Shown here: positions 1,172-23,178 of the stretch, piece by piece | Layout of the letters: the number at the start of each line of letters is the position of its first letter | Numbering within the stretch: position 1 is the first letter of the stretch | Virus record (IMG/VR): IMGVR_UViG_3300006749_000149 | Span: 1 to 23,178 of that record | Origin: a virus | Strand: one strand, 5' to 3' | Length of the DNA: 23,178 bases | Notes under the pieces: generated by a model | What the model saw: the letters and a program-made list of their open reading frames with translations, nothing else | What the model was told of the DNA's origin: nothing | Database searches by the model: none | Made by a program: the position numbers and the translations under genes

Positions 1172-3559
1172 ATGGGCATATACACCAATACTAGAAGTGC
1201 ATTTCCTAGCCAAGTTGTTAGCGAACAAGAGAAGTCAAGCCTTGAATATGGAAAACAAGTGGCTCAAGCTATAGAAGGCGAGTGGTTTAATCAAGGTAGA
1301 ACTACAGGTAATAGATATTTAACTAATTGGAATAATTTTAATCAATTAAGACTTTACGCAAGAGGTGAACAAAGTGTTCAAAAATATAAAGATGAATTAT
1401 CTATAAATGGTGATTTGTCTTATCTTAATTTAGACTGGACACCTGTCCCTATTTTATCTAAATTTGTAGATATAGTTGTAAACGGAATATCTCAAAAAAA
1501 GTATGAAATTAAAGCATACGCACAAGATCCTGAGTCTGTAAAAAAGAGAACAGATTATGCTTCAATGTTATATGAAGATATGATATCTCAAGATTATTTA
1601 CAAATACTTCAAGAAACACTAGGTATTGACGCGTATCAATCTCCTAGTAAAAATGTTGTTCCAGAGTCAAAAGAAGAGCTAGAGCTTCATATGCAGTTAA
1701 GTTATAAGCAGTCTATAGAAATAGCTCAAGAAGAAGCTATATCTTCTGTAATGGCTCAAAATAAATACAATCTTACTAGAAGAAGATTAAATATGGATTT
1801 AGCAGTTTGCGGTATAGCGGCTGTTAAAACTAATTTTAATACCGCCAACGGTGTTACTGTTGATTATGTTGATCCAGCATACATGGTTTATTCTTACACA
1901 GAAGATCCTAATTTTGAAGATATATATTACGTAGGTGAAGTTAAATCTATAACCATACCAGAGCTTAAAAAAGAATTTCCTGATATACCAGATGATGAAC
2001 TAGAGCGCATACAAAACACGCCTGGCAATAAGTCTTATATAACTGGTTACGGAAATTACGATAACAATACAGTTCAAGTTTTATATTTTGATTACAAAAC
2101 TTATAATGATCAAGTTTTTAAAATAAAACAAACTCCACAAGGGTTGATGAAAGCTATAGAAAAAGAAGATACTTTTAATCCACCCGAAAGTGACATGTTT
2201 GAAAGAGTTTCTAGGTCTATTGAAGTTTTATACAGTGGAGTTAAAGTACTAGGTACAAATATAATGCTTAAGTGGGAGTTGTCTAAAAATATGTCTAGAC
2301 CTATGTCAGACACTACTAAAGTTCGCATGAATTATGCTATATGTGCGCCTAGAATATATAAAGGTAGAATAGAATCTTTAGTTGGAAGATGTACTGGTTT
2401 TGCAGATATGATACAACTTACACATTTAAAGCTACAACAAGTGATATCTCGCATGGTTCCAGATGGTGTATATCTAGACATGGACGGACTTGCTGAAGTT
2501 GATTTAGGCAATGGAACTAATTATAACCCAGCTGAGGCATTAAATATGTATTTTCAAACTGGTTCTGTTATTGGTAGATCTTTAACGCAAGACGGCGAAA
2601 TGAACGCTGGTAAAGTTCCGGTTCAAGAGCTTCAAGCTGGAAGCGGTAACGCAAAAATACAAAGCTTGATTACAACATATCAATATTACTTACAAATGAT
2701 ACGTGATGTGACAGGTTTAAACGAAGCAGTAGATGGTAGCTTACCTGATCGCAATACTTTAGTTGGGCTTCAAAAATTAGCGGCTAATGCTTCTAATGCA
2801 GCTACTAGACACATAGGCCAATCAAGTATGTATCTTACTCTTAGAATAGCTGAAAACATAACTTTAAAAATAGCAGATGCTTTAGAGTTTCCGTTGACAA
2901 ATAAATCTTTGCAAAATTCTATATCTACTTTTAATATAAAAACACTTCAAGAAGTAGTTAATCTTAATTTGCATGATTTTGGTATATTTTTAGAATTAGA
3001 GCCAGACGAAGAAGAACAAGCTAAATTAGAAGAAAATATACAAGTTTCTTTACAACAAGGTGGTATTAATTTAGAAGACGCTATTGACTTACGTCAAATA
3101 AAAAATCTTAAACTTGCTAATCAAATGCTTAAAATAAAGCGCAAACACAAGCAAGAACAAGATATGCAAATACAACAAGCCAACATAGCAGCTCAAGCTG
3201 ATGCTCAAGCTCAGACTGCCGAAAGAACTGCTATGGCTGAAGTTGAAAAACAACAAGCAATAACTTCTACTAAAGTGGATTTTGAGCAATCAAAAAGTCA
3301 AATGGAAATTCAAAGAATGAATACTCAGACTCAGTTAGACATGCAGAAAATGGCTAGAAAGTTTGAATATGATAGGCAATTAAAGCAAATGGAAGTTGAT
3401 GCTATTGGCTCAAAAGAACAAATGATAGAAGACAGAAAAGACAAGCGTATAAAAATGGAAGGTACGCAGCAAAGCGAAATGATAAGCCAAAGAAAGAACG
3501 ATGGCTTACCCATTGATTTTGAAAATCAGCCAGACGCTGATTTGAGTGCGTTTATGTAA
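1172..3559 (+). CDS. Portal protein
   Basis: The 795-residue protein should form the dodecameric ring at the capsid vertex through which DNA enters and leaves. Its length is typical of the long portals of short-tailed P22-like and crAss-like phages, well above the 450-550 residues of siphovirus portals. Residues about 430-470 (DMDGLAEVDLGNGTNYNP and following) and 509-570 (IRDVTGLNEAVDGSLPDRNT, then LVGLQKLAANASNAATRH) match the portal core as I know it from this phage type. From about residue 655 to 760 the chain is a Gln/Ala/Lys/Met-rich, almost uninterrupted helix with coiled-coil character, expected to form the C-terminal barrel or crown inside the head. Position directly after the terminase supports the call. 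The ATG follows the terminase stop without a gap; AAAGGAG at 1142-1148 lies too far upstream to act as its ribosome site. Confidence 0.92.
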   Translation: MGIYTNTRSAFPSQVVSEQEKSSLEYGKQVAQAIEGEWFNQGRTTGNRYLTNWNNFNQLRLYARGEQSVQKYKDELSINGDLSYLNLDWTPVPILSKFVDIVVNGISQKKYEIKAYAQDPESVKKRTDYASMLYEDMISQDYLQILQETLGIDAYQSPSKNVVPESKEELELHMQLSYKQSIEIAQEEAISSVMAQNKYNLTRRRLNMDLAVCGIAAVKTNFNTANGVTVDYVDPAYMVYSYTEDPNFEDIYYVGEVKSITIPELKKEFPDIPDDELERIQNTPGNKSYITGYGNYDNNTVQVLYFDYKTYNDQVFKIKQTPQGLMKAIEKEDTFNPPESDMFERVSRSIEVLYSGVKVLGTNIMLKWELSKNMSRPMSDTTKVRMNYAICAPRIYKGRIESLVGRCTGFADMIQLTHLKLQQVISRMVPDGVYLDMDGLAEVDLGNGTNYNPAEALNMYFQTGSVIGRSLTQDGEMNAGKVPVQELQAGSGNAKIQSLITTYQYYLQMIRDVTGLNEAVDGSLPDRNTLVGLQKLAANASNAATRHIGQSSMYLTLRIAENITLKIADALEFPLTNKSLQNSISTFNIKTLQEVVNLNLHDFGIFLELEPDEEEQAKLEENIQVSLQQGGINLEDAIDLRQIKNLKLANQMLKIKRKHKQEQDMQIQQANIAAQADAQAQTAERTAMAEVEKQQAITSTKVDFEQSKSQMEIQRMNTQTQLDMQKMARKFEYDRQLKQMEVDAIGSKEQMIEDRKDKRIKMEGTQQSEMISQRKNDGLPIDFENQPDADLSAFM

Positions 3560-4817: not shown

Positions 4818-6281
4818 ATGAGTTTAACTCCTCAATTTGGTAGTTTAATCCCTTCTCCTAAACAAGAGATTTTAGATTCTAACTACTTACAATTTAATGG
4901 TGGTGCTAACGTAGGCGACAGTGATTCTTTCGCTCAACAGTATTTACCAGAAGTATACGAACAAGAAGTAGAGCGTTATGGAAACAGAACGTTATCTGGT
5001 TTTTTACGTATGGTTGGCGCTGAAATGCCCATGACATCTGATCAAGTAATTTGGTCTGAGCAAAATAGATTACACATTTCTTATGATGATTGTGTTATTG
5101 GAGGCGCTTTAGCGGCTGATGAAATAAATGTAGCTCCTGCTGCAGGATTTCCAGGCGTACAAAACGTTATTTCTATAAACGACACAGTTGTTATTTTAGA
5201 TACGGCTACAGGCGCTGAGCAAAAAGGTATTGTAACCGCTAGTGTTGACACTACTGCTGCTGTAGATGGTGTAATTAGTGTTACAACTTTTGATGGAAAT
5301 GGATTTGCTGGATTTACTAGTGGAGCTGTTAAAGTATTTGTATACGGTTCTTCTTATGGAAAAGGAACTACTATTGGAACTGGAGCTGGTAATTCAGCTG
5401 TAAGAAAATCAGTAGAACCACAGTTTACACAATTTTCTAATTCACCAATTATCTTAAGAAGCCAGTATGTAGTATCTGGATCTGACATGGCACAAATTGG
5501 ATGGGTAGAAGTTGCAACAGAAGACGGTGCATCTGGTTACTTATGGTATTTAAAAGCTGAATCTGAAACTCGTTTACGTTTTGAAGATTACTTAGAAATG
5601 GCAATGGTAGAATCAGAGTACAATCAGACTGCTGGATTAGGAGCTTATGGCGCTGCTAAATTACCAGGATCTGAAGGTTTATTTGCTGCTATCAGATCTC
5701 GTGGTAATGTAGAAGTAGGATTTACTGCTGCTAACGGACTAGATGAATTTGATGCTATTTTGAAAAACTTAGATACTCAAGGTGCTATTGAAGAAAACAT
5801 GCTTTTCTTGCAAAGACAAACAGCTCTTGATTTTGACGATATGCTAGCTGCGATCTCTGGTGGAACTGCCGGTGGTACTGCATTTGGTTTATTTGAAAAC
5901 TCAGAAGAAATGGCATTGAACTTAGGGTTCAGCGGTTTCCGAAGAGGATCTTACGATTTCTATAAAACTGATTGGAAATACTTAAACGACGCTTCAACTC
6001 GTGGCGCTATCGATGGAGTTAATTCTATCGAAGGTGTATTAATACCAGCTGGAACATCTACAGTATACGATCAAGTTTTAGGAACTAACATCCGTAGACC
6101 TTTCTTACATGTACGATACAGAGCTTCACAAGCTGATGATCGTCGTATGAAGTCTTGGATTACTGGTTCTGCTGGTGGTGCATTTACATCTACTCTTGAC
6201 GCTATGGAAGTAAACTTCCTATCTGAAAGATGTTTAGTTGTACAAGCTGCTAACAACTTTGTATTATTCCAAGGAGTATAA
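4818..6281 (+). CDS. Major capsid protein (HK97-fold type)
   Basis: The 487-residue protein should build the icosahedral head. Residues about 50-92 (EVERYGNRTLSGFLRMV, then EMPMTSDQVIWSEQNRLH) match the N-terminal arm and E-loop region I associate with capsid proteins of crAss-like and related podoviruses. Residues about 100-195 are rich in Gly, Thr, Val and Ala and look like an inserted beta domain before the main P- and A-domain sequence. The C-terminal end (GGAFTSTLDAMEVNFL, then ERCLVVQAANNFVLF) is compact and hydrophobic, as expected for a subunit core. Codon use differs from neighbouring genes: by hand count 9 of 21 Arg codons are CGT and 2 are CGA, whereas neighbours use AGA almost throughout. 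This suggests selection for very high expression. Start: ATG after a short A-rich leader 15 bases behind the preceding stop. A strong terminator follows immediately. Confidence 0.92.
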   Translation: MSLTPQFGSLIPSPKQEILDSNYLQFNGGANVGDSDSFAQQYLPEVYEQEVERYGNRTLSGFLRMVGAEMPMTSDQVIWSEQNRLHISYDDCVIGGALAADEINVAPAAGFPGVQNVISINDTVVILDTATGAEQKGIVTASVDTTAAVDGVISVTTFDGNGFAGFTSGAVKVFVYGSSYGKGTTIGTGAGNSAVRKSVEPQFTQFSNSPIILRSQYVVSGSDMAQIGWVEVATEDGASGYLWYLKAESETRLRFEDYLEMAMVESEYNQTAGLGAYGAAKLPGSEGLFAAIRSRGNVEVGFTAANGLDEFDAILKNLDTQGAIEENMLFLQRQTALDFDDMLAAISGGTAGGTAFGLFENSEEMALNLGFSGFRRGSYDFYKTDWKYLNDASTRGAIDGVNSIEGVLIPAGTSTVYDQVLGTNIRRPFLHVRYRASQADDRRMKSWITGSAGGAFTSTLDAMEVNFLSERCLVVQAANNFVLFQGV

Positions 6282-9248: not shown

Positions 9249-12200
9249 ATGGCAGAAGTTAAGAATAGTTTTATATCGTCTAAAATGAATAAAGATTTAG
9301 ACGATAGATTAATTCCTAATGGTGAATATAGAAACGCTGTAAACGTTTCAATAAATAAATCCACTGGAGAAAACGTAGGCACAGCACAAACAGTACTAGG
9401 TAATCAACTTCTTGTTAATTATGGTCAAATCTTAAACGCTTCAAGCTTAGAAGTTATAGGTGTTTTACCAGATGATAGCTCTAATACTATTTATTCTTTT
9501 CTAACAAACAATACATTAGAAAGATATGTTCCCGTTGGAGCGGTAGGTGTTACGAGTACTTATCCAAGCCAACAAAACAGCTTTGATGTGCTACCTCCTG
9601 TAATTATAAATAACCCAGGTCAAGGTTATGATAACATACAAAATGGATCTACAACAAACGTTTCTGTTGCCAATCCTAACGCTTCGGGTTTATTGCTAAG
9701 TGTAGTTTGCGACCCTACCGCAGCTGTTTCTTGTACTTTAATATCTGGTGGATCTGGATATCCCAATGGTTTACAGCAAAACATAAATACTATAGCACAG
9801 AGTCCATCAACTGGATTTGGAGCTATAGTAAGTTATTTCGGCGCTAATAACTCTGTGACAAGTCCTACTATAACTTTTGGAGGAACTGGATACAATGCTG
9901 GTGACGTATTAAGAGTTTTAGGTGGTGGAAGTGGAATTAATGCTGTTATAGAAATTAGTTCAGTTAATAACACTGGAGCTATAACCTCTGTTGAAGTAAA
10001 AAACTCTGGTTTTGGTTATTCAATTGGAGATATAGTTCAAGTAGATGGTTTTGATCCATCGGGTTTCGCGGCTGAAATTCAAATTAACTCTCTTTTATTA
10101 TGCGATAATTTTGTTGTTTCGTTTAATATTAACGAATTAAACCAATTAACAACAATAGCAAAAGGTTCTTTTTTAAATTTTTCTACTTTAAATCCTATTA
10201 ATGGAATTAACTTATTAGAAGAGTTGTTGTTTTTTACAGACAATAGAAATCAACCTAGAAAATTAAACGTAACAAGAATAGATCCTTATTACACTACAGA
10301 AGATCAAATATCTGTGGCTAAGTATTATCCTTTTGATCCTATACAGCTATATCAACCTAGCGAAGTTGCAGGAGCTATTTATGACACAGGAGAAATAGAC
10401 GCTGTTTCTGATAGTAAAATTATAAATTTCAACGTTACACCAACGCAGTCATCAAGTTCTAGCTTAGGTGTTATAGGTACTTTTGCTCAGATTACAAGTG
10501 GTGGAGAAAATTATGGCACTGGCAACGGCAATAATACAGTCGGTGGTACTGGATTTGGGTTGACAATAGATATTGATTCCGTAGATCCTAACGGTTCAAT
10601 AACTGGAATTACTGTTGACCAACCAGGTAACGGTTATACTAATGGAGACGTTGTAACAATATTCGATGCTACAGGAAACGGCCAAGCTACAGCTACGGTT
10701 AGCGTTGTTAAAGACAATACTTTTGTAACAGACGTAACAAACTGGCCAAACTCTATAAGTGTTAATCAAACTCAAAATCTCCCTGCTGGAATGACTGTTA
10801 GTCTTGTAGAAGTAGAGACAACTATGCAAAATGCTATAAGTCTTTATCTTCCACCTACAGCAACGTCTAGTATATTTGGAGTGCCTTCTGCTAATCAATT
10901 TGAAGTATACATTGTAGGAACACCAACAATTCCAGGCTTTGTAGGAGTGCCAGAGCTTGTAGGTTTAAATGTTTGGTTAAAAAATTCAAACGATGACTTT
11001 GTAAACACAACATCAGTAGTAACTTCTGTTTCAATAGTAAATATTGGCGGTGTTGATTATTATCAAATACAAGTATCACCTAACATAGTGGCTACAGGTT
11101 TAAGTTTTCAAGACGAATCAGAAGTTTTGTTTGCGCTGCCAAATCCTTATTATGATACTGTTTTTGAGCAAAATGCTAACGTAGAATTTTTAAATGACAA
11201 ATTTGTTAGATTTTCTTATAGATATAGATATGACGATGGAGAATATTCGTTAATAGCACCTTTTACTCAACCAACTTTTATACCAGAACAAGATGGTTAT
11301 TTTAGAACAACAGGCGTTGGTGTTGATGATGGAGTTAGTGATGAATTAAAAGCATATAGGTCTACTGAGGTAGATTTTATGGAAAATAAAGTAAACAAAG
11401 TACTTTTAAATATACCACTTCCTACTATAGCTGATTCTATTTCATCTGAATTTAAAGTAACAGATATAGAAATACTTTACAAAGAGTCTGATCAAACTAC
11501 AATAAAAGTAGTTGAAACTATTCCCGTAAAAAATAATATCTTTGGAAGTAGTCCTTTTTATCAATATGAATACGGTTCTAAACCTCCTTTTAAAACTCTT
11601 CCGCAAAGTGAAACTGTAAGAGTTTCTGATAAAATTCCAGTAAAAGCTTTTTCTCAAGAAATTTCTAGCAATAGAGTTATATATGGAAATTATCAAGACA
11701 AACACACTCCACCTAGGTTTTTAAATTATACTTTAGCTGCAGAGTCTAAAAACCCTTCGTTTGTGGTAACTGATAATAAAGTTGATAATTACACTAGTAT
11801 AATAGAATATCCTAATGCTAGTTTAAAACAAAATAGAACATATGAAGTAGGAGTTGTTTTATCTGATAGATTTGGAAGACAGTCTACTGTAATATTTTCC
11901 AAAACTAAACTAGCTTTACAACAAAGCTTTATAGCGTCATCTTTGTATTCACCATATAGAACAGAGTTTGACAATGACGGAACAGGTAATAATCCGACAG
12001 GAGGCTTATTAAATTACGACGGTGATTCTTTAAAAATACAATTTTTAGATGCAATACAAAGTTTTAAAAGCCCTGATCCTAATGATGGTGTTCCTGGTAT
12101 ATACAACGGTGATATATCATCTCCAGATTATAATCCATTAGGTTGGTATTCTTTTAAAATAGTAGTAAAACAAACAGAGCAAGACTATTATAATGTGTAC

Positions 12201-14366
12201 TTGCCTACAGCTATGGCGGGTTATCCTTTAGATCCAACTAAAGAAATTGAAACTACAACACATGTTGTTTTATTTAATGATAATATAAATAAAATACCTA
12301 GAGATTTAACAGAGGTTGGTCCTACACAAAGAGAGTTTCCTAGTAGCGTTAGAATGTTTGGAAGAGTTAGTGACAATTTTAAAGGTCTAGGCACAAGTAC
12401 TAATCAATTCTATCCTGGTAGAAACGCTAGTCTTTCAACTTCTGTAGGAACAATAAGAGACTTGTTTGATTATAATGCTTTTCCAGAAATAAATACAGGT
12501 GTAACAACTGGACAGTATATATTTTATAATTTTGATTATATTAGTACCTCAACCGGCGGCGGAAATTTTGAAAACTCATACCCAGACTCAAGTTCTTTAG
12601 TAGCTAGAATTGAAGGTGATAAAATTGGGGTTCCTATTCCTGCTATTGGAGGTGGTCTTTCTGGTTTTGCTTATTCTGCTGTTCCAAAACTAAATGTATT
12701 TGAAACAGCCCCAACGGTTTCTTTGTTAGACATATATTATGAAACTACTACTTCTGGTAAAGTTAGTGATTTAAACAAAGCTATATTAGAAGGCCCAGCT
12801 GCTAATGTATTTGCTGATGTAACTCCTTTTGCCGTGTTTTTAGCTGAAGACATGCTAGGTACAAATGGAAATGATATAGAAGTAACAGGAGAATTTAGAC
12901 CTCAAAGATTTGATGGAAGTGATTTTACAAACCCTTCACAAAACGGATGTAGAATTATATCTGTTACAAACTTATTGGGAGCTGAAAACGATCATTTTGA
13001 AAACGAAGATAGCGTTCCTTATCATGTAGAGCAAACTGTTGACGAAGGAATATTTGGTATACAAGAACAATTAAACCAATCACAAGAACCGTCAGGTTCT
13101 TTTAAAATAATATTAACAAAATCGCCTAGCATTACAACGCCTGGCTTAGTTGTTAATAAAACTTTATTAGATTCAAATATAGCACCAGCTAACGGACCTT
13201 TTAGACTTAAATTTGATCTTGAGTTTACTAATCCTGAAGCAGAAGAACCTTTTCAATATACAACTTTTTTAGAAATACAAAATAAAGCACCAGAAAATAT
13301 TGTTGTTCAAGATAGAAATAGAGCAATTGTACCATGTTGCAGTCAAGATGTTGGTTGTAATCCTACTGCTTTTAATGTATTCAATAGAGAGGCAATACCT
13401 AGAGGAAATTGGTTAAAAGTTAATGCAACAAATGGATCTAAAACGCAAAGTTTAGAAAAATTAGGTTTAAGTTTTGAAATATTTAAAATTGTAGACTATT
13501 CTACCCCTCAAGGTGTTGTTATTGATCCTACTATTGGGGCATTAAGATATTTCTTTTTAACTGAAGGACCAGCTGCAGGCTTAGGCGGTGGTGGACCTTT
13601 TTCTGACGCTCAAGCTATTATAAATATTCCTGATCAAAATCTTTTAGATACTAACCGAACATATATGATAAGTCTAAAAGTAACAGACGGAGGTGTTCCA
13701 GGTATGTTTAGAATATGTGACTTGTTTGTTGTATTTAACTCTTCGCCTTTAGTTTCTTGGACTGAGGATTTAAATAGTGGAGGTTGTGATTCACAATTTA
13801 CTCCAGTTCAAGCTCCAGTTGCTGGATCATTTACTTGGGGTGCTAGTTCTGGGTTTTTTAATAGAGTGATGAACAATCCGTTTCAAGGTTGGCTTTTCGG
13901 TCAAGGCGGCGCAGCTAATCCTAACTCTTATCTTTGTAATGATAGCATAGTTACATGTGATAATGAAATTCCTTTTCAAATAAAAGTAGACAACGCACCT
14001 GTTGATCTTTATTTAACAGTAGTTGTAGCGCGAAACTGGGGTAGTCAAGATTTTGTAATTTCACAAGGAACAGTAAGTACTCAATTAAATGTTTTAGGAA
14101 ACCCAACAACACCTCAAATAGTTATTCCCGCAATGACGCTTGCACCAGGTGGAACACAACCACAAGGTGCTAATTTTCCTTTAATATCTGGAGATTTCAT
14201 AACTTTAGAGCCTCAACCTGGTCAAGAATGTGGTACTCTTTTTAATTTAACATTGAGAGCTTTTGGAGAAGCTTTTAATCCGGGCAACAGCGCACCAGTT
14301 TTAGGCTACCAGCTACTAGTTGTGCCTACAGGAACAGGGTATCCAAACACCTATAGCTTAGGATAA
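9249..14366 (+). CDS. Tail-hub / muzzle-type protein (P22 gp10-like tail stabilisation type), 1705 residues
   Basis: This is the largest complete gene here. Residues 7-60 (SFISSKMNKDLDDRLIPNGE, then YRNAVNVSINKSTGENVG) are the start I associate with the long tail-tip or stabilisation proteins of crAss-like and uncultured marine podoviruses. Framework segments follow: ELLFFTDNRNQPRKLN (~330-345), KFVRFSYRYRYDDGEYSL (~652-670), AFSQEISSNRVIYGNY (~800-815) and VGVVLSDRFGRQS (~868-880). Two blocks of GY..GD repeats are inserted at about 121-281 and 417-488. The C-terminal part, from about 1230, has all nine of its cysteines between residues 1234 and 1661, with beta-sandwich-like sequence (KVTDGGVPGMFRICD). 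There is no signal peptide. The protein likely forms the tail nozzle below the ring proteins and contacts the cell surface. The family call is from remembered motifs, not from a search. Confidence 0.62.
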   Translation: MAEVKNSFISSKMNKDLDDRLIPNGEYRNAVNVSINKSTGENVGTAQTVLGNQLLVNYGQILNASSLEVIGVLPDDSSNTIYSFLTNNTLERYVPVGAVGVTSTYPSQQNSFDVLPPVIINNPGQGYDNIQNGSTTNVSVANPNASGLLLSVVCDPTAAVSCTLISGGSGYPNGLQQNINTIAQSPSTGFGAIVSYFGANNSVTSPTITFGGTGYNAGDVLRVLGGGSGINAVIEISSVNNTGAITSVEVKNSGFGYSIGDIVQVDGFDPSGFAAEIQINSLLLCDNFVVSFNINELNQLTTIAKGSFLNFSTLNPINGINLLEELLFFTDNRNQPRKLNVTRIDPYYTTEDQISVAKYYPFDPIQLYQPSEVAGAIYDTGEIDAVSDSKIINFNVTPTQSSSSSLGVIGTFAQITSGGENYGTGNGNNTVGGTGFGLTIDIDSVDPNGSITGITVDQPGNGYTNGDVVTIFDATGNGQATATVSVVKDNTFVTDVTNWPNSISVNQTQNLPAGMTVSLVEVETTMQNAISLYLPPTATSSIFGVPSANQFEVYIVGTPTIPGFVGVPELVGLNVWLKNSNDDFVNTTSVVTSVSIVNIGGVDYYQIQVSPNIVATGLSFQDESEVLFALPNPYYDTVFEQNANVEFLNDKFVRFSYRYRYDDGEYSLIAPFTQPTFIPEQDGYFRTTGVGVDDGVSDELKAYRSTEVDFMENKVNKVLLNIPLPTIADSISSEFKVTDIEILYKESDQTTIKVVETIPVKNNIFGSSPFYQYEYGSKPPFKTLPQSETVRVSDKIPVKAFSQEISSNRVIYGNYQDKHTPPRFLNYTLAAESKNPSFVVTDNKVDNYTSIIEYPNASLKQNRTYEVGVVLSDRFGRQSTVIFSKTKLALQQSFIASSLYSPYRTEFDNDGTGNNPTGGLLNYDGDSLKIQFLDAIQSFKSPDPNDGVPGIYNGDISSPDYNPLGWYSFKIVVKQTEQDYYNVYLPTAMAGYPLDPTKEIETTTHVVLFNDNINKIPRDLTEVGPTQREFPSSVRMFGRVSDNFKGLGTSTNQFYPGRNASLSTSVGTIRDLFDYNAFPEINTGVTTGQYIFYNFDYISTSTGGGNFENSYPDSSSLVARIEGDKIGVPIPAIGGGLSGFAYSAVPKLNVFETAPTVSLLDIYYETTTSGKVSDLNKAILEGPAANVFADVTPFAVFLAEDMLGTNGNDIEVTGEFRPQRFDGSDFTNPSQNGCRIISVTNLLGAENDHFENEDSVPYHVEQTVDEGIFGIQEQLNQSQEPSGSFKIILTKSPSITTPGLVVNKTLLDSNIAPANGPFRLKFDLEFTNPEAEEPFQYTTFLEIQNKAPENIVVQDRNRAIVPCCSQDVGCNPTAFNVFNREAIPRGNWLKVNATNGSKTQSLEKLGLSFEIFKIVDYSTPQGVVIDPTIGALRYFFLTEGPAAGLGGGGPFSDAQAIINIPDQNLLDTNRTYMISLKVTDGGVPGMFRICDLFVVFNSSPLVSWTEDLNSGGCDSQFTPVQAPVAGSFTWGASSGFFNRVMNNPFQGWLFGQGGAANPNSYLCNDSIVTCDNEIPFQIKVDNAPVDLYLTVVVARNWGSQDFVISQGTVSTQLNVLGNPTTPQIVIPAMTLAPGGTQPQGANFPLISGDFITLEPQPGQECGTLFNLTLRAFGEAFNPGNSAPVLGYQLLVVPTGTGYPNTYSLG
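9609..10089 (+). repeat. Four GY..GD protein repeats (block 1) in the muzzle-type gene
   Basis: Four units start with a Gly-rich turn ending in Gly-Tyr: PGQGY (Tyr127), GGSGY (Tyr171), GGTGYNAGD (Tyr215) and SGFGYSIGD (Tyr257). Tyr-to-Tyr spacing is 44, 44 and 42 residues. Between turns the units share a pattern of short strands with a Gly-rich link and an Ile-Thr-Ser-Val strand. Units are recognisable in protein but diverged in DNA, so they are not recent copies. Confidence 0.8.
10497..10713 (+). repeat. Two GY..GD protein repeats (block 2) in the muzzle-type gene
   Basis: Two further units of the same type: SGGENYGTG (Tyr422) and PGNGYTNGD (Tyr463), 41 residues apart, with the strand NGSITGITVD between them matching TGAITSVEVK of block 1. 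They are separated from block 1 by about 135 residues of framework sequence without repeats. Confidence 0.75.
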
Positions 14367-14400
14367 GCGTAAATAATAATAAAAAAAAGTAATAATACAA

Positions 14401-15864
14401 ATGGCTGCTACTTTAGAAATAAAATACTTTAATAGCTATATATTAAAAAGATACGAACCTATAACCACATCTAGTCCCAATGTTATTAGAAGACAGATAT
14501 GGAATGGATCTTTTGGTATACCTACGGCTATAGGTGGGCATCCAAGAAATTTAGACCCAAGGCTTCCTAACTGCTGGTATTTAGAAGAATCTAGAATAAG
14601 AGGTGGTTACAACAATACAACAGTAGATTTTGGTGTTAGAGCTTATCTAGTTGAACAAGAGCCAAACTCTAGTATTAGATTAAATTCTTTAATATATTCT
14701 GGTATATATAATTCTAGAACAGGCGTTAATCAAACAAATGTATTTAGCGTAGCTGAAGAAATTACAAAAAGTTTAGATCCAGCTCAAGGCGCTATTAATA
14801 AGCTTTATGCAGAAGATACTAATTTAATAATTTTTCAACAATATAAAGTAAATAAAGCATTAATAGATAAAGATGCTATATATAGTGCAGAAGGAGGAGG
14901 ATTACCAGTTAGTTCTTTTAAAACTGTTATAGGTCAAACAGTTCCATTTCCAGGTAATTATGGCATTGGAAACAATCCAGAAAGCTTTGCAGTGTATGGT
15001 TACAATAAATATTTTGTAGATCCAAATCAAAATGCAGTTATGAGACTAGGGCCTGATGGTTTAGTAGAAATATCTGCTGCAGGTATGAATGGTTTTTTTA
15101 GAAATCAAATATTAAAAGTAAACTCATCTGCTTTTGGAGTTGGTAAACTAGTTGGTGGATGGGATATATATAATAAAGAATACGTTTTATCTTTACAGCC
15201 AGTTTCAATATCTGCTCAATTATCAGAGCCTACTTTATCTTGGGACGAAAAAGCTCAAGGTTGGATTAGTTTTTATAGTTATAAACCAAGTCAATCTTTT
15301 AGTTTAAAAAACAATCATTACACAACTTTTGAAGACTCATTATACTTACACAATTCTCAAAACGGAATTTATAATACTTTTTATGGAAAAAGAACTCCAT
15401 CTTCAATAGAATTTGTTTTTAATCCACAGGTTAGTAACTCAAAAGTGTTTAACACTGTTAACTACGAAGGATCTAATGGATGGCAAGTTGATTTTTTTAG
15501 ATCAGACGAAACAGGACCTGGAACACTTGCTGACCCAGCTGCTTTTGTTGTTGATAGCACGGCCCAAGTATTAAGTTATGTTGAAGGTGCTTATGATTCT
15601 GCAGTGCCATCTAACACTGGGTCTAATGCGGTTGTTCAGCCTATATATAGAGCTGGTTTTTATAGAAAAGAAAACAAATACTGTGCAAACTTAATAAACA
15701 GTACGCCTATAGCTCAAGAAGAGGTAATATTTGGAGATCAAATATCAGGAGTAAGAGGCTTTTTTATGAATGTAAAATTTTCTACTGATAACACGACAGA
15801 CGTTAGTGGTTTTAAAGAACTTTTTGCAGTTTCATCTAACTACACTTTTTCAAGTGGATATTAA
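14401..15864 (+). CDS. Tail protein, companion of the muzzle-type protein, 487 residues
   Basis: Residues about 138-165 (LYAEDTNLIIFQQYKVNKAL, then IDKDAIYS) and 192-237 (NPESFAVYGYNKYFVDPNQN, then AVMRLGPDGLVEISAAGMNG) are strongly patterned beta sequence of the propeller type. I recall these motifs near the C-terminal end of the long muzzle or tail stabilisation proteins of related phages. Here they are on a separate gene, 34 bases after the 1705-residue gene, in another frame, with in-frame stops between, so it is a true second gene. The C-terminal half includes a Trp-containing WDEKAQGWISFYSYKPS segment and a possible surface part near the end (CANLINSTPIAQEEVIFGDQ). No membrane segment. 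Likely part of the tail nozzle, assembling with the upstream protein. Leader A/T-only with an A8 run. Confidence 0.58.
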   Translation: MAATLEIKYFNSYILKRYEPITTSSPNVIRRQIWNGSFGIPTAIGGHPRNLDPRLPNCWYLEESRIRGGYNNTTVDFGVRAYLVEQEPNSSIRLNSLIYSGIYNSRTGVNQTNVFSVAEEITKSLDPAQGAINKLYAEDTNLIIFQQYKVNKALIDKDAIYSAEGGGLPVSSFKTVIGQTVPFPGNYGIGNNPESFAVYGYNKYFVDPNQNAVMRLGPDGLVEISAAGMNGFFRNQILKVNSSAFGVGKLVGGWDIYNKEYVLSLQPVSISAQLSEPTLSWDEKAQGWISFYSYKPSQSFSLKNNHYTTFEDSLYLHNSQNGIYNTFYGKRTPSSIEFVFNPQVSNSKVFNTVNYEGSNGWQVDFFRSDETGPGTLADPAAFVVDSTAQVLSYVEGAYDSAVPSNTGSNAVVQPIYRAGFYRKENKYCANLINSTPIAQEEVIFGDQISGVRGFFMNVKFSTDNTTDVSGFKELFAVSSNYTFSSGY

Positions 15865-17703: not shown

Positions 17704-20700
17704 ATGACATTAGAAGAAAAAACTATAGAACTTCAATCTCAGTTTCCTCCTTTGAAAGTTGAGCAAATTATAGAAATTCTAAAAAACTTTAAGCCTGATG
17801 AAGAGGTTGTAGATGAAGTTGAAGAAACTCCTACTGAAGAAAATAAAGAAGAGGGAAAGCCACCTGCTGTTGCGGAGAAGGATACGACTGTGACAGCGGA
17901 GAAAAACGAAGTATCCGATCCTTTAGATTCTGGAGATGGCAAATCACAATTAGATCCTTATGCTTTAAGAAATCTTGATATAATAAATCAAAGAGCAGAA
18001 AGAGCTATTGCTATGGACGCAGCGGTAGATGTAAGAAAGTCAAGAAAATCTTTAGAAGAATCCGCTGGTTTTGTTGCTGACTTTAAATCTTCGGCTAATG
18101 TTATTGACGAAGTTGGTGTATTTAAAGACAAAGACGGTAATATTATAGACACAAGTAATGTAGAAATTAAAAAAGAAAAAATACCATCATCATTTACTCA
18201 AGAAAGAAAAGATTTGTATGATGCTAAAAACCAAAAATATGATGATACAATAGTTCGGGAGGAGCCTGAAATTGAAATAACTGAAGAACAAAGACTAGAT
18301 GAAGCAGAGCAAGAGTATATTGATGCAAACGGCACTGACATTATAAAACTAAGTCCAGTTGGCGTTAGAAAATATAAAATATTTGGGCCTGACTACGATT
18401 ATGGCCAACACAGACATTTCAGTAATATTAAATTTAAAGATTTTGCAAAATTAGAAACTGTTAAAAATCAAGCTTTAAGTGTGCTAGATCAAATAAACGA
18501 CCCTAGTTTTTCTGAATTTACTCCTAAAGAAATAACAAATCAAGCTGCTTTAAATCATTTTGGCAAACTAGATGATATAAGAATACAAGACACAGAAACA
18601 TATGGTTTTGGTGTTGATAAAGAATCTTACACAAATCCAAGATATGAGAATAAAAAAGAATATGAAGATTATTTATTAAAAACACTTGGTGAGGAAAAGT
18701 TTGAACAATACAAGCTTTACAACCCTACATATTCTAACATATACAGCGAAGATTTTGAGGGAGGTGATTTTGGTGTAACGCCTGAGCAACAAGAGCAAGC
18801 TACAAACGAGCTTATTGCTAAAAAAGTTCAAAGAATAATGTATAGCGCCGACGATGACGCTAATATGGACGGTTCAACGCTTGGAAGTAACAGAGCCTTG
18901 GGTATTATATCTAAAATATATGATGAAAATATTGGTGAAGCGCAAAAAGAAGTTAAAGCTCTAGACGTATTTCAAAATGATTTAGAAAAAAGATCTATCG
19001 AGTTGCAGCAACGAAGTGATGAAATACAAGTTAAATTAGATCCTATTGTAAAAAATATACAAAATCTTTCTAATAAATCAAAAGAATTAAAAGCCAAAAT
19101 ACAAGAATATAAAGATTCTAATTTTTTCTCTAGTTTAGATCCTGGATATATTAAAGCTGTTGAAGAATATAATGAATCTATAACTAATTATCAGCAAGCT
19201 TATAACGAATATAAGTCTAGTGAAATTGGTCAACTTGCTAACACTTTGAATCAAGATGTTAAAGTTTATAAGTATAGACTAGATCAGTTTGAAAAAAGAG
19301 CTGAGGCCTCTTCTGAAGATCCTACTAGAGTAATAGAGCATGCTTTAGGTTTAGATTATAGTAATTGGGCTAAAGTTACAAATTCTTTATATAACACGTT
19401 TATTAAAGATACTAAAAACTTTTTTAATTTAACTGCTCAAGGGTTTTTAAAAATGGCAAACTTTTTAGGAGGTGATGATCCAGAAGGCGAAGCGATACTA
19501 AATACTGCTATATATAATTTAGAGCAGAACATGTATGATTATAACAAAGAGCGCGCTGAATATACACAAGCTAATATAGCTCCTTCGGTTTCATTAGATG
19601 ATATAGGCAAAGACGGTATAGGTTTCTTTGATTTCTCTATGCAAGCTCTTTCTGATCAAACAGGTACTATAGCGTTAGGAGCTTCTTATTTACTTACTGG
19701 AGGAGCAACATCTCTAGTTACAGGTGGTTTAAAGGCTGGTTCTAGTTTTGCTACAAGAAGAGCTTTTAGAATGATGCAAAAAAGAGTCGTAGCAACACAA
19801 CAAAGAATAGTATCAAACACGTTTGGCATAACAGAAACTGGTAGCGCTATTAGCGAGGCTAATATGGACAAGTATGATGCCATAAAGTCTCTTGATTTTT
19901 ATAATAAAGCCATATCTTCTGGTCAATATACAGCTGAAGAACTAGACGACATGGGTTTAGACATAGATGACCTTAGAAGAAAAGCTAATTATAGTTGGAA
20001 CTCAATGGCGTTTCAAGCTTATGGTCATGGGATTGTAGCTAATTATGCAGAAAAATTAGGTACAATAAGAATGCCATCTATATTGCGAAAGGCTTCTAAA
20101 AGGCGTGGTATGGAAAATATTATAAAAACAAAAATATACAAACACGACTTTGGTTTAAAAGCCTTATACAGCGCTAAACGAGCCCTGCAGGGTTTAAGAC
20201 CTTTAGCTACAAAAGCCATACCAGGTGAATTATTAGAAGAAACTTTAACGGAAATAGGCCATAAAGCTTTAAGATATTATGCGTTAGATGAAAACGGAAG
20301 TTGGTTAGAAGGAGTAAATAAAGATTTTCTAGCTAAAACTAGTTTAAGTTCTTTAGCTATGATGGCACCTGGTTCAATGCAGAATGTGTTTACCACTCTT
20401 AAAAGTGATTTTAGATCAATAGACGATTTATCTGCAAACATTAAGCTTAGAGACAGACTAAATCAACTAACTCTTTTAATTCCAAGCTTAGAAGGCGCTA
20501 GGCGCGTTAAAGCTAGAGAAGAAAAAAGAGATATATTAAGAACTTTTGCCTTAAACGAAGTTAGTACTATTCAAAAATTAAATCATTTAACAGCTGATCA
20601 AATATTTGAAATAGCAGAAGCTAGTAGAATACAAAGAGATTTAGCAAAACAAGCTAGACTAATAGGTCAAGATGGAAGTACTGACGCTGAAAGTAGAAAT

Positions 20701-23178
20701 GAAATAGCTAAAATAAACGAAGAGTATTCTAATTTACAAAAAGTAAAAGATAACCTGTTAAACACTAAGAAGCGTCAAATGGCTCTTGCGGCTAAAAATA
20801 TGCGACAGGAAATGGGTGCTCCAAGCGCAATAGACGTAGAATATAATCTAGGTTTATATGATATGGCTGTTGATAGCGCAGGCGTTTTAATGAACAAAGA
20901 CGGTAATTTTATTCAAATACCAGTAAAAGAAGGTGGTGGAATTCCATCTCCTGCAGAAGTTATAAACATATTAAAAGAAAATGGCTATGATGACGCTAAA
21001 GCTGAAGCGTTGGCTTTAAAATTAACCGGAGACGCTCCTGTTAATGCTTTGCACGATGGCAATAATATTATAGTAAATGACTACGCTATTAAAGCTAGAA
21101 TATATACTTCTTTAAATAAAGGTGATGCTGAATATGCTGCTATAGCACCTATTGAAGAAATATTCCATGCCAATATAAAAGCTAAGAATTTAAGAAATGC
21201 TAAAGGAGAATTAAGCGATTTAGCTACTCAAGCTATTGAAGACACTATTAGAATATTAAAACAAAATAGAGACAATGGTGTTATATCAGAGCAAGACTAC
21301 AATGATTTACTAGAACGTTTTGAATTATATAGAGAAAGTAACGGAAAAGTTGTTTTAAAATCTGGAGAAAGAGGTGCTGCAAAGGTAGATATAGAGGAAG
21401 TGATGGCGCAAATGAATAACGCTAATATACTAGGAAAAATAAACGCCAATGATTTAAAAGGCGCTCCTTCTATTAGAACTTTTTTAAACGGTGTTATCTC
21501 TAATATAATGGGTGATTCTGCGTGGCTTATGGATCTTAAGGATTCTAACGACGTGTTAAACTTTTTAGATACTTTCAAGAAAAGATACGAGGATAGAAAT
21601 ATAAAAGTTGATTCAGACGAAGAGCAAGCAGACACCACGCCTGTTATAGATTTACAAACAGAAACACAAGTTGATGGTGAAGGAACTCTTAGGCCATTCG
21701 AGCTAGATACCGCAGCTAGTAGAGGCCAGCAAATAAATCGAGCCGAAGAAGCAGCTGGTTATCAAGTGGCTCCATTAGCAGCGTTTCTTGCTGCTGATGT
21801 AAAATCTGGTGAAAAAACTAATGAACAACTAATTGTAGACGCTGCACCAAAAAACAATGCAACACCAGAGGTCAGAATAGCATCACAGGATGCATTAGTA
21901 GAGGCTAATTGGCCTGTTATAAGAAAAGCATTAAAGATTGATCCTAGTGGTAAGATTCCACAGCCTTTTATAAAGCTTGCTGTTCAAGAAATGTTTAGAG
22001 ATACATTTCCAGGTAGAGGTGTTGAAGCTAAGTTTTTTGATAAATTTGATCCTAGCCTAGAAAACAAAGTTACTACGTTCCTTGAAGGCCAGTTAAACAT
22101 GAGAACTGGAGATATATTAGAAAGAGCTAAGGCTTTAGAATCTGGTAAGCAAGATTTAGGAATTGAAAAAGCTGGTGGTGTTATAGATACAACAGTAACT
22201 GAAACTGTAAAAGAAACCGCTGTAAAAAGACCACCAAGTGAAACTGGTGTTTACACTCCTGTTGTTGCTGAAAACTTAAACATTGATGTACTTACTGAAA
22301 AAGTAGATCAAAATGGAGATAGAATACCTAAGACAAGTGCTCAGATAAAAACAGAAGTTGATGCTGTTATAAACGAAGCGATAAAAGCTGACACAAAAGG
22401 GGTGACTGGTGTTACTAGATTTGGTCAAGTAAAAGTAGGTCCTCAGTTGGCTGCAGTATTAGGAAAAGCATTTAACCTTAATCCTAAAGTGTTTTTACAA
22501 AAAGGTTTTAACTTGTCTGGCAACTTTGAAAACTTAAGACAGTACTTGCTTAAAAATGCCCAAGAAGACTTTAGCAACCTACCAGAAGCATATGATCCTT
22601 CTATATCTGGAAAAAATAGAGTTTCAGGAGCAGCTTTTATACCTGAAAACGTTAAGAGAGAATTTTATAAAAAAGTAGAAGGCACAAACAGATTTGAGCT
22701 AGATAAAAGCAAAACAGTTAAAGATTACATTAATCTACTGAAAGAATCAGACGGTAGATCTACTGGAGCTACAACAGTTAAAGGCTTAGCTGATTTACAT
22801 TTTAGAAACAAAATAGCTGAAACATTAATAGAGCCTTCAACTAGAAGAGTTACAGGTATAAAGTTTAATAGAGGCAAAAAACTAGTAAACCCAGTTGACG
22901 TTTTAAGAGAACTAGAATCAGGCGCAAATGTTCAAAGCTATAATAAAACTCTAAGAATATTTGGTGCTAAACCTTTAAGTTCCAAAAATTTAGATGTAAA
23001 TAGCTCTAAGCTTCCAAAAATAGTTATTGATTATTTAAATAAAAACAATATACCTGTACCTGAAGGTTTAGAAGATTTTTTAGATAAAAACTTTAAAGGT
23101 GTAGAAAATTTTAAAGATTTTGATGAAAAGTTTTCACAATTAAAGAAAGATTTTTCTGAACTATATCAAGATGGTGAT
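17704..23178 (+). CDS. Giant internal virion / large polyvalent-type protein, N-terminal 1825 residues (3' end outside window)
   Basis: The frame is open from the ATG at 17704 to the last base, 1825 codons without a stop; I translated it throughout. Residues 1-25 form a short helix, followed by an acidic Glu/Pro/Thr linker (~25-85). Residues about 409-529 are a long coiled coil (QNDLEKRSIELQQRSDEIQV). Hydrophobic Gly/Ala/Leu segments at 654-680 (GTIALGASYLLTGGATSLVT) and 879-897 (TSLSSLAMMAPGSM) bracket a domain holding PGELLEETLTEIGHK (840-854). This pattern is known in ejected internal proteins and large polyvalent proteins. Residues 960-1030 are again helical. An acidic linker at about 1300-1330 and a Thr/Val-rich linker at about 1490-1515 separate later globular parts, including GVTGVTRFGQVKVGPQLAAV (~1567-1586). 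No lysozyme, HExxH protease or RNA-polymerase motif was recognised. Probably packaged in the head and ejected with the DNA. Confidence 0.7.
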   Translation, partial: MTLEEKTIELQSQFPPLKVEQIIEILKNFKPDEEVVDEVEETPTEENKEEGKPPAVAEKDTTVTAEKNEVSDPLDSGDGKSQLDPYALRNLDIINQRAERAIAMDAAVDVRKSRKSLEESAGFVADFKSSANVIDEVGVFKDKDGNIIDTSNVEIKKEKIPSSFTQERKDLYDAKNQKYDDTIVREEPEIEITEEQRLDEAEQEYIDANGTDIIKLSPVGVRKYKIFGPDYDYGQHRHFSNIKFKDFAKLETVKNQALSVLDQINDPSFSEFTPKEITNQAALNHFGKLDDIRIQDTETYGFGVDKESYTNPRYENKKEYEDYLLKTLGEEKFEQYKLYNPTYSNIYSEDFEGGDFGVTPEQQEQATNELIAKKVQRIMYSADDDANMDGSTLGSNRALGIISKIYDENIGEAQKEVKALDVFQNDLEKRSIELQQRSDEIQVKLDPIVKNIQNLSNKSKELKAKIQEYKDSNFFSSLDPGYIKAVEEYNESITNYQQAYNEYKSSEIGQLANTLNQDVKVYKYRLDQFEKRAEASSEDPTRVIEHALGLDYSNWAKVTNSLYNTFIKDTKNFFNLTAQGFLKMANFLGGDDPEGEAILNTAIYNLEQNMYDYNKERAEYTQANIAPSVSLDDIGKDGIGFFDFSMQALSDQTGTIALGASYLLTGGATSLVTGGLKAGSSFATRRAFRMMQKRVVATQQRIVSNTFGITETGSAISEANMDKYDAIKSLDFYNKAISSGQYTAEELDDMGLDIDDLRRKANYSWNSMAFQAYGHGIVANYAEKLGTIRMPSILRKASKRRGMENIIKTKIYKHDFGLKALYSAKRALQGLRPLATKAIPGELLEETLTEIGHKALRYYALDENGSWLEGVNKDFLAKTSLSSLAMMAPGSMQNVFTTLKSDFRSIDDLSANIKLRDRLNQLTLLIPSLEGARRVKAREEKRDILRTFALNEVSTIQKLNHLTADQIFEIAEASRIQRDLAKQARLIGQDGSTDAESRNEIAKINEEYSNLQKVKDNLLNTKKRQMALAAKNMRQEMGAPSAIDVEYNLGLYDMAVDSAGVLMNKDGNFIQIPVKEGGGIPSPAEVINILKENGYDDAKAEALALKLTGDAPVNALHDGNNIIVNDYAIKARIYTSLNKGDAEYAAIAPIEEIFHANIKAKNLRNAKGELSDLATQAIEDTIRILKQNRDNGVISEQDYNDLLERFELYRESNGKVVLKSGERGAAKVDIEEVMAQMNNANILGKINANDLKGAPSIRTFLNGVISNIMGDSAWLMDLKDSNDVLNFLDTFKKRYEDRNIKVDSDEEQADTTPVIDLQTETQVDGEGTLRPFELDTAASRGQQINRAEEAAGYQVAPLAAFLAADVKSGEKTNEQLIVDAAPKNNATPEVRIASQDALVEANWPVIRKALKIDPSGKIPQPFIKLAVQEMFRDTFPGRGVEAKFFDKFDPSLENKVTTFLEGQLNMRTGDILERAKALESGKQDLGIEKAGGVIDTTVTETVKETAVKRPPSETGVYTPVVAENLNIDVLTEKVDQNGDRIPKTSAQIKTEVDAVINEAIKADTKGVTGVTRFGQVKVGPQLAAVLGKAFNLNPKVFLQKGFNLSGNFENLRQYLLKNAQEDFSNLPEAYDPSISGKNRVSGAAFIPENVKREFYKKVEGTNRFELDKSKTVKDYINLLKESDGRSTGATTVKGLADLHFRNKIAETLIEPSTRRVTGIKFNRGKKLVNPVDVLRELESGANVQSYNKTLRIFGAKPLSSKNLDVNSSKLPKIVIDYLNKNNIPVPEGLEDFLDKNFKGVENFKDFDEKFSQLKKDFSELYQDGD

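Follow-up and report, generated by a model that had tools for sequence, protein, structure and literature searches.

What is the giant open reading frame at the 3′ end of the 23,178-nucleotide window (the whole stretch of viral DNA analysed here), and which of its parts can be recognised? The frame starts with an ATG at 17704 on the + strand and is free of stops to 23178, giving 1825 codons with an open 3′ end, a length with a chance probability of ~1e-61 at 33% GC. The whole IMG/VR record comprises the same 23,178 bases, so the giant frame reaches the contig end and the rest of the gene is not obtainable from the same genome. The downstream sequence was read in a relative from IMG/VR (L003; L numbers denote individual sequences), with 90% identity across residues 1-1820 and a complete gene encoding 3095 amino acids, placing about 59-60% of the protein within the window. 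Comparison with L003 and a second relative, L002, gave dN/dS values of 0.3-0.55 for the part preceding residue 561 and 0.09-0.20 for the remainder, confirming that the frame is coding and bearing out the original prediction, made from the DNA letters, of at least 1825 residues running off the window. The last five codons (23164-23178, YQDGD) differ from both close relatives, which have NKKKV there, and the contig edge may be unreliable at this point.

We consider it quite probable that the frame is the 5′ part of a mosaic virion cargo protein of ~3,000 amino acids, of the ejected polyvalent type, carrying a zincin that is probably inactive or altered. This kind of protein is already known; what is new is a clade-fixed EExxH site combined with exchangeable modules (Table 1).

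Table 1 Features of the window and of the giant frame (positions in the window)
Feature	Position	Strand	Basis
Portal protein (context)	1172..3559	+	49.5% to 'P22 like portal protein' of MW202828
Major capsid protein (context)	4818..6281	+	tblastn 42-51% to Elemovirus, Panino, MW202828
Muzzle-related proteins, two ORFs, 9249-14366 and 14401-15864 (context)	9249..15864	+	phrog_14478 in both
Giant virion cargo/ejection protein (probable), first 1825 residues	17704..23178	+	Open frame; relative L003 is 3095 aa
Residues 1-30, N-terminal tag (MTLEEKTIELQSQFPPL...), exchangeable between middles	17704..17793	+	L004: residues 1-100 alike, middle otherwise different
Residues 31-85, acidic linker, probably disordered	17794..17958	+	D+E 30% in residues 1-60
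Residues 86-560, fast-evolving, polar, helical or coiled-coil-like	17959..19383	+	dN/dS; weak PHROG matches
Residues 561-900, core module; one hydrophobic segment, EExxTE	19384..20403	+	Homologous to parts of phi38:1 gp101 and elemo gp18
Residues 654-674, only hydrophobic peak (GTIALGASYLLTGGATSLVTG)	19663..19725	+	Kyte-Doolittle 1.19
Residues 841-850, GELLEETLTE (EExxTE)	20224..20253	+	E845 and E846 invariant in 16 homologues
Residues 1045-1290, zincin-like domain	20836..21573	+	Profile/alignment; AF2 pLDDT mostly 65-87
Residues 1151-1155, EEIFH in the active-site helix of the zincin, Glu in place of the first His	21154..21168	+	E in 15/15 of clade
Glu1232, predicted third metal ligand, second helix	21397..21399	+	Invariant in 27 aligned members
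Residues 1294-1346, flexible linker	21583..21741	+	AF2 pLDDT < 50
Residues 1347-1760, two small modules with linker 1482-1514, common to other mosaics	21742..22983	+	BLAST to relatives

The giant frame closes a late gene module

The genes of the window lie on one strand in the order terminase, portal, scaffold-like ORF, major capsid protein, small virion proteins, muzzle-related, two ORFs and the giant ORF, the terminase and scaffold names being assigned from gene order. Portal and capsid proteins match those of Elemovirus, Cellulophaga phages, Maribacter phage Panino and MW202828 (41-51% identity among the matches listed), and the Cellulophaga phages in question belong to the Pervagoviridae and Pachyviridae, families proposed as relatives of the Crassvirales from predicted structures (PMC9855967). 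The crassvirus Pfam family crAss_MUZ_C was found in the second muzzle ORF only, and to judge by the shared PHROG the muzzle-related sequence seems to be split between the two ORFs. The window represents the late module of a crAss-related marine podovirus, akin to Pervagoviridae, Pachyviridae, Elemovirus and Crassvirales, and the giant frame is the final gene of that module.

In Elemovirus, phi38:1 and phi13:2 the last late gene, in the same order, encodes a protein of 1691-3694 amino acids annotated as 'structural' or 'virion structural'. Giant genes in the same slot at MW202828.1 741-12320 and PP540027.1 28228-33717 carry the names 'reticulocyte binding/rhoptry protein' and 'tRNA methyltransferase'. 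As the Panino giant protein matches a member of the family described below (L007, E 2e-20), these names look like misannotations.

Genome bins holding related contigs are labelled Flavobacteriaceae, Cryomorphaceae, Flavobacteriales and Saprospiraceae, and also Aliivibrio and Woesearchaeota. The bin label of a viral contig is weak evidence of its host, and the hosts are probably Bacteroidota-type bacteria. The bins labelled Aliivibrio and Woesearchaeota, in which L062, L064-L068 and L072 sit, probably reflect binning contamination.

A family of mosaic giant proteins

A tblastn search of the frame against 50,697 phage records gave no match, and searches of Pfam, PHROG and PDB with the frame and with full-length relatives returned no known family beyond weak HAD and polynucleotide kinase (PNK) matches. 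Foldseek found no significant PDB match for either of two AF2 models, whose mean pLDDT was low (57 and 62); the best viral Foldseek matches, though weak, were proteins of Gundel_1 and phi46:3/phi19:3. Repeat and Rfam searches revealed nothing notable. Full-length matches came from uncharacterised IMG/VR contigs alone, and the protein does not coincide with an ejection or cargo protein already characterised.

Scans of IMG/VR and GTDB genomes yielded 38 non-redundant relatives, the complete ones being ~2,300-3,300 amino acids long. The family has a common build: a short N-terminal tag, an acidic linker, an exchangeable middle and a conserved C-terminus. L003 and L004 are 86-87% identical over residues 1-100 and 66% identical over ~1,100 C-terminal residues, with no BLAST similarity between these ends, which marks the proteins as mosaics with an exchangeable middle. 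The middle of the window's protein (~312-1371) is in turn common, at 25-32% identity, to contigs with differing N-termini. The family thus combines several unrelated domains in a single chain and exchanges them between relatives, as polyvalent phage proteins do.

Ahead of the core module, residues 121-560 show dN/dS of 0.31-0.53, and residues ~411-545 gave weak matches to unnamed PHROGs only. The disordered layer that had been predicted probably corresponds to the acidic low-complexity linker at ~31-85 and to low-confidence AF2 stretches at 1294-1346 and 1482-1514, the latter two lying close to the linkers placed at about residues 1300 and 1490.

A core module shared with phage proteins annotated as structural

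Profile comparison linked window residues ~613-890 to residues 332-548 of gp101 of the isolated phage phi38:1 (hhalign probability 96.6, E 5.7e-10) and residues ~755-1020 to residues 566-823 of elemo gp18 (probability 86.9, E 4.2e-6), and BLAST connects the core module to these phage proteins via other family members. Profile comparison with N4 gp50 and phi14:2 g067 gave no match. Both gp101 and gp18 are annotated 'structural protein' and occupy the same gene slot; the label of gp101 is indirect, as the phi38:1 record bases it on similarity to another phage's protein.

Two hydrophobic segments had been proposed to bracket a region with an EExxTE helix. The helix motif was found at E845-E850 (EETLTE) with both leading glutamates invariant, and one of the segments at residues 654-674; since no other peak exceeds a Kyte-Doolittle value of 1.0, the claim of a second segment is weak. 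The corresponding modules of phi38:1 and elemo have stronger hydrophobic peaks than the modest one of the window, so that a membrane role of the core module is presumptive.

A zincin-like domain with a fixed His-to-Glu change

The prediction that enzymatic domains could be hidden in residues 1000-1825 proved correct in part: a zincin-like domain occupies residues 1045-1290, though in the window's clade it lacks the canonical catalytic motif, and no known fold was found in residues 1347-1760. Exactly one HExxH is present in 23 of the 38 relatives, at equivalent places, where shuffling leads to an expectation of 0.0028 per protein. Alignment of 27 members left three invariant columns only, E1152, H1155 and E1232, corresponding to the Glu and second His of HExxH and to a Glu in the next helix; a zincin signature with this helix-2 Glu has been described for polyvalent proteins (PMC5512222). 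The window's protein thus retains the catalytic Glu, the second His and the Glu of the following helix, and has Glu1151 in place of the first metal-binding His. None of the curated Pfam and PDB families recognises the domain. In the AF2 model, which is of low confidence and has no significant fold match, strands at ~1069, 1115 and 1121 precede the EExxH helix. One relative, L019, has HExxxH in place of HExxH at this position (residues ~1169-1174), a variant known from other polyvalent proteins (PMC5512222).

The window and 14 relatives read AP[IL]EE[IL]FH at the site, the first His being Glu in all 15 at ~25-30% identity. Two sisters, L057 and L071, which align to the window's protein at E 2e-33 and 2e-41, carry P[ML]HELLH there. 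A tree with these sisters as outgroup unites the EE members in a single group (support 100/100; 65/83 in a wider tree), and profiles built from EE-only and HE-only members match each other at E 4.8e-7 with a score of 51.7, where shuffled columns score at most 17.6. The domain is under strong purifying selection, with dN/dS of 0.10-0.15. Taken together, the EE group, its HELLH sisters and the low dN/dS are most simply explained by a site that changed once and was then kept.

Changes of the first His to Glu in other zincins are viewed as inactive sites with roles unknown (PMC3650047). From its residues, the EExxH plus Glu site in the window's clade is most likely that of a pseudoprotease or of a domain whose metal chemistry has changed, retained for a structural or binding role. 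We regard it as rather unlikely that the domain is active, with Glu1151 serving as a ligand in a Glu-His-Glu site that binds another metal and acts as a protease or other hydrolase. The fixation of Glu1151 across so divergent a clade, the retention of the general-base Glu, the second His and the helix-2 Glu, and the strong purifying selection all speak for such a site; against it stand the treatment of the same change as inactivating in other zincin families (PMC3650047) and a literature search that found no biochemical precedent. Were it correct, this clade of ejected giant proteins would hold a functional metal site of a novel kind, a protease repurposed and not simply lost, an outcome to which we give a minor chance.

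Modules downstream of the pseudoprotease candidate

Residues 1347-1760 are matched by BLAST in seven relatives (L010, L013, L018, L020, L009, L047, L048) and by profile in the type represented by L004 (probability 99.8). The module that follows the zincin in the L004 type (window ~1389-1524) might be taken for a domain resembling sigma-70 region 2 and diverting the RNA polymerase of the host, an idea to which we give hardly any credence. It aligns collinearly to the phages' own sigma factor with a score of 20.4 and has several weak Foldseek sigma matches, but comparable scores came from column-shuffled controls (up to 20.1) and from an unrelated helical stretch (21.5), no Pfam sigma match was obtained, and the window's own version is without a match. 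Good by eye and in one profile alignment, the assignment was rejected, as controls score equally.

Beyond the window, L003 contains FDFDDTLA at residue 2163, a DxDxT motif I present in most relatives, and residues 2283-2379 have a weak polynucleotide-kinase PHROG match. Relatives give weak HAD Pfam matches in the C-terminal part, where the model alternates strands and helices and weak Foldseek matches include structures that we take to be HAD folds. The motif, the PNK and HAD matches, the alternation and the fold matches together point to a HAD-type phosphatase, that is, a DxDxT motif I with a predicted Rossmann-like fold, lying outside the window and placed at residues ~2140-2390 of L003. It is followed in L003 by ~700 mostly helical and strongly conserved residues.

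A phosphatase-like motif in relatives together with swappable modules, as in conflict proteins, is also what one would expect of a late or early protein with no place in the virion, for instance a replication factor or cytoplasmic toxin, that merely adjoins the virion genes. We judge this improbable, because the proteins in the corresponding slot of other phages carry structural annotations and one of them has a homologue of the core module.

Presumed delivery into the host and the RNA polymerase alternative

The preferred reading, a virion cargo protein, suggests the following course. Copies of the giant protein would be packed in the capsid, and the chain would be ejected N to C through the tail, partly unfolded, with the N-terminal tag and acidic linker leading. 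The core module would associate with the cell envelope and help the DNA channel. Once in the cell, the zincin-like domain and the small modules would refold, as would the HAD-type phosphatase and the helical domain of the C-terminus. The capsid and tail of crAss001 store its cargo proteins, and N-to-C ejection with partial unfolding has been proposed for them (PMC10172136); by analogy, the giant chain may be ejected in the same way. The gene slot, the homology to structural proteins, the module swapping and the zincin-like domain all fit the large polyvalent protein that had been predicted, and its injection into the host is presumed.

The same slot and size class are those of the crAss/N4-type virion RNA polymerases and RNA-polymerase-associated proteins, and the N4 virion polymerase likewise combines a membrane part at the N-terminus with an HExxH domain and an extensive helical C-terminal region (PMC12633501). 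An identity of this kind is nevertheless very improbable and, at sequence level only, largely refuted: eight related contigs of 51-69 kb contain no phi14:2-type polymerase, although the query finds itself, there is no profile match to N4 gp50, and a D-x-D-x-D motif is not conserved. A PF00940 search without matches is uninformative, since the controls were equally silent.

Six of the eight related contigs (G001-G006) encode a separate ORF of 250-265 amino acids with a sigma-70 region 2 match (L076-L081), five of the six exceeding the Pfam cut-off for PF04542, and the phages concerned may have a sigma factor of their own. The lack of a phi14:2-type polymerase in the eight contigs together with the sigma ORF in six suggests, without proving it, that the related phages use the host RNA polymerase.

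Comparison with known systems

The closest known counterparts of the virion cargo protein proposed here are gp101 of phi38:1 (Pervagoviridae), gp127 of phi13:2 (Pachyviridae) and gp18 of Elemovirus, each the last late gene in the same slot. Both gp101 and gp18 contain a homologue of the core module. However, the HAD motif was not found in these three proteins of 1691-3694 amino acids, the conserved C-terminal domain of the window's family has no profile match in them, and the giant proteins of phi38:1 and phi13:2 lack HExxH.

The polyvalent zincin-like MPTase proteins (PMC5512222) resemble the family in their many swapped modules, the zincin helix-2 Glu and the HExxxH seen in L019, but differ from the window's clade in the first metal His, which is Glu there, and the text of PMC5512222 makes no mention of a HAD phosphatase such as the window's family carries. 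N4 gp50 is similarly laid out, with a membrane part, an HExxH domain and an extensive helical region at the C-terminus, whereas the window's family has neither a detectable RNA polymerase domain nor profile similarity to it. The crassvirus cargo proteins (crAss001 gp45-gp50) are likewise large proteins of a related virion whose genes follow that of the muzzle; crAss001, however, has five separate cargo proteins including RNA-polymerase-associated ones, where the window's family has one giant chain in which a polymerase is undetectable.

What emerges is a defined family of ~40 giant virion proteins in which the borders of the modules are mapped and whose layout suggests one mosaic chain doing the work of several crassvirus cargo proteins. 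The protein is ordinary in kind, and the parts worth following are its clade-fixed EExxH site and its module exchange. HExxH, HExxxH and EExxH at one position in sister proteins constitute a natural experiment, through which the role of ejected phage zincins in self-processing, in attack on host proteins or as a scaffold becomes testable.
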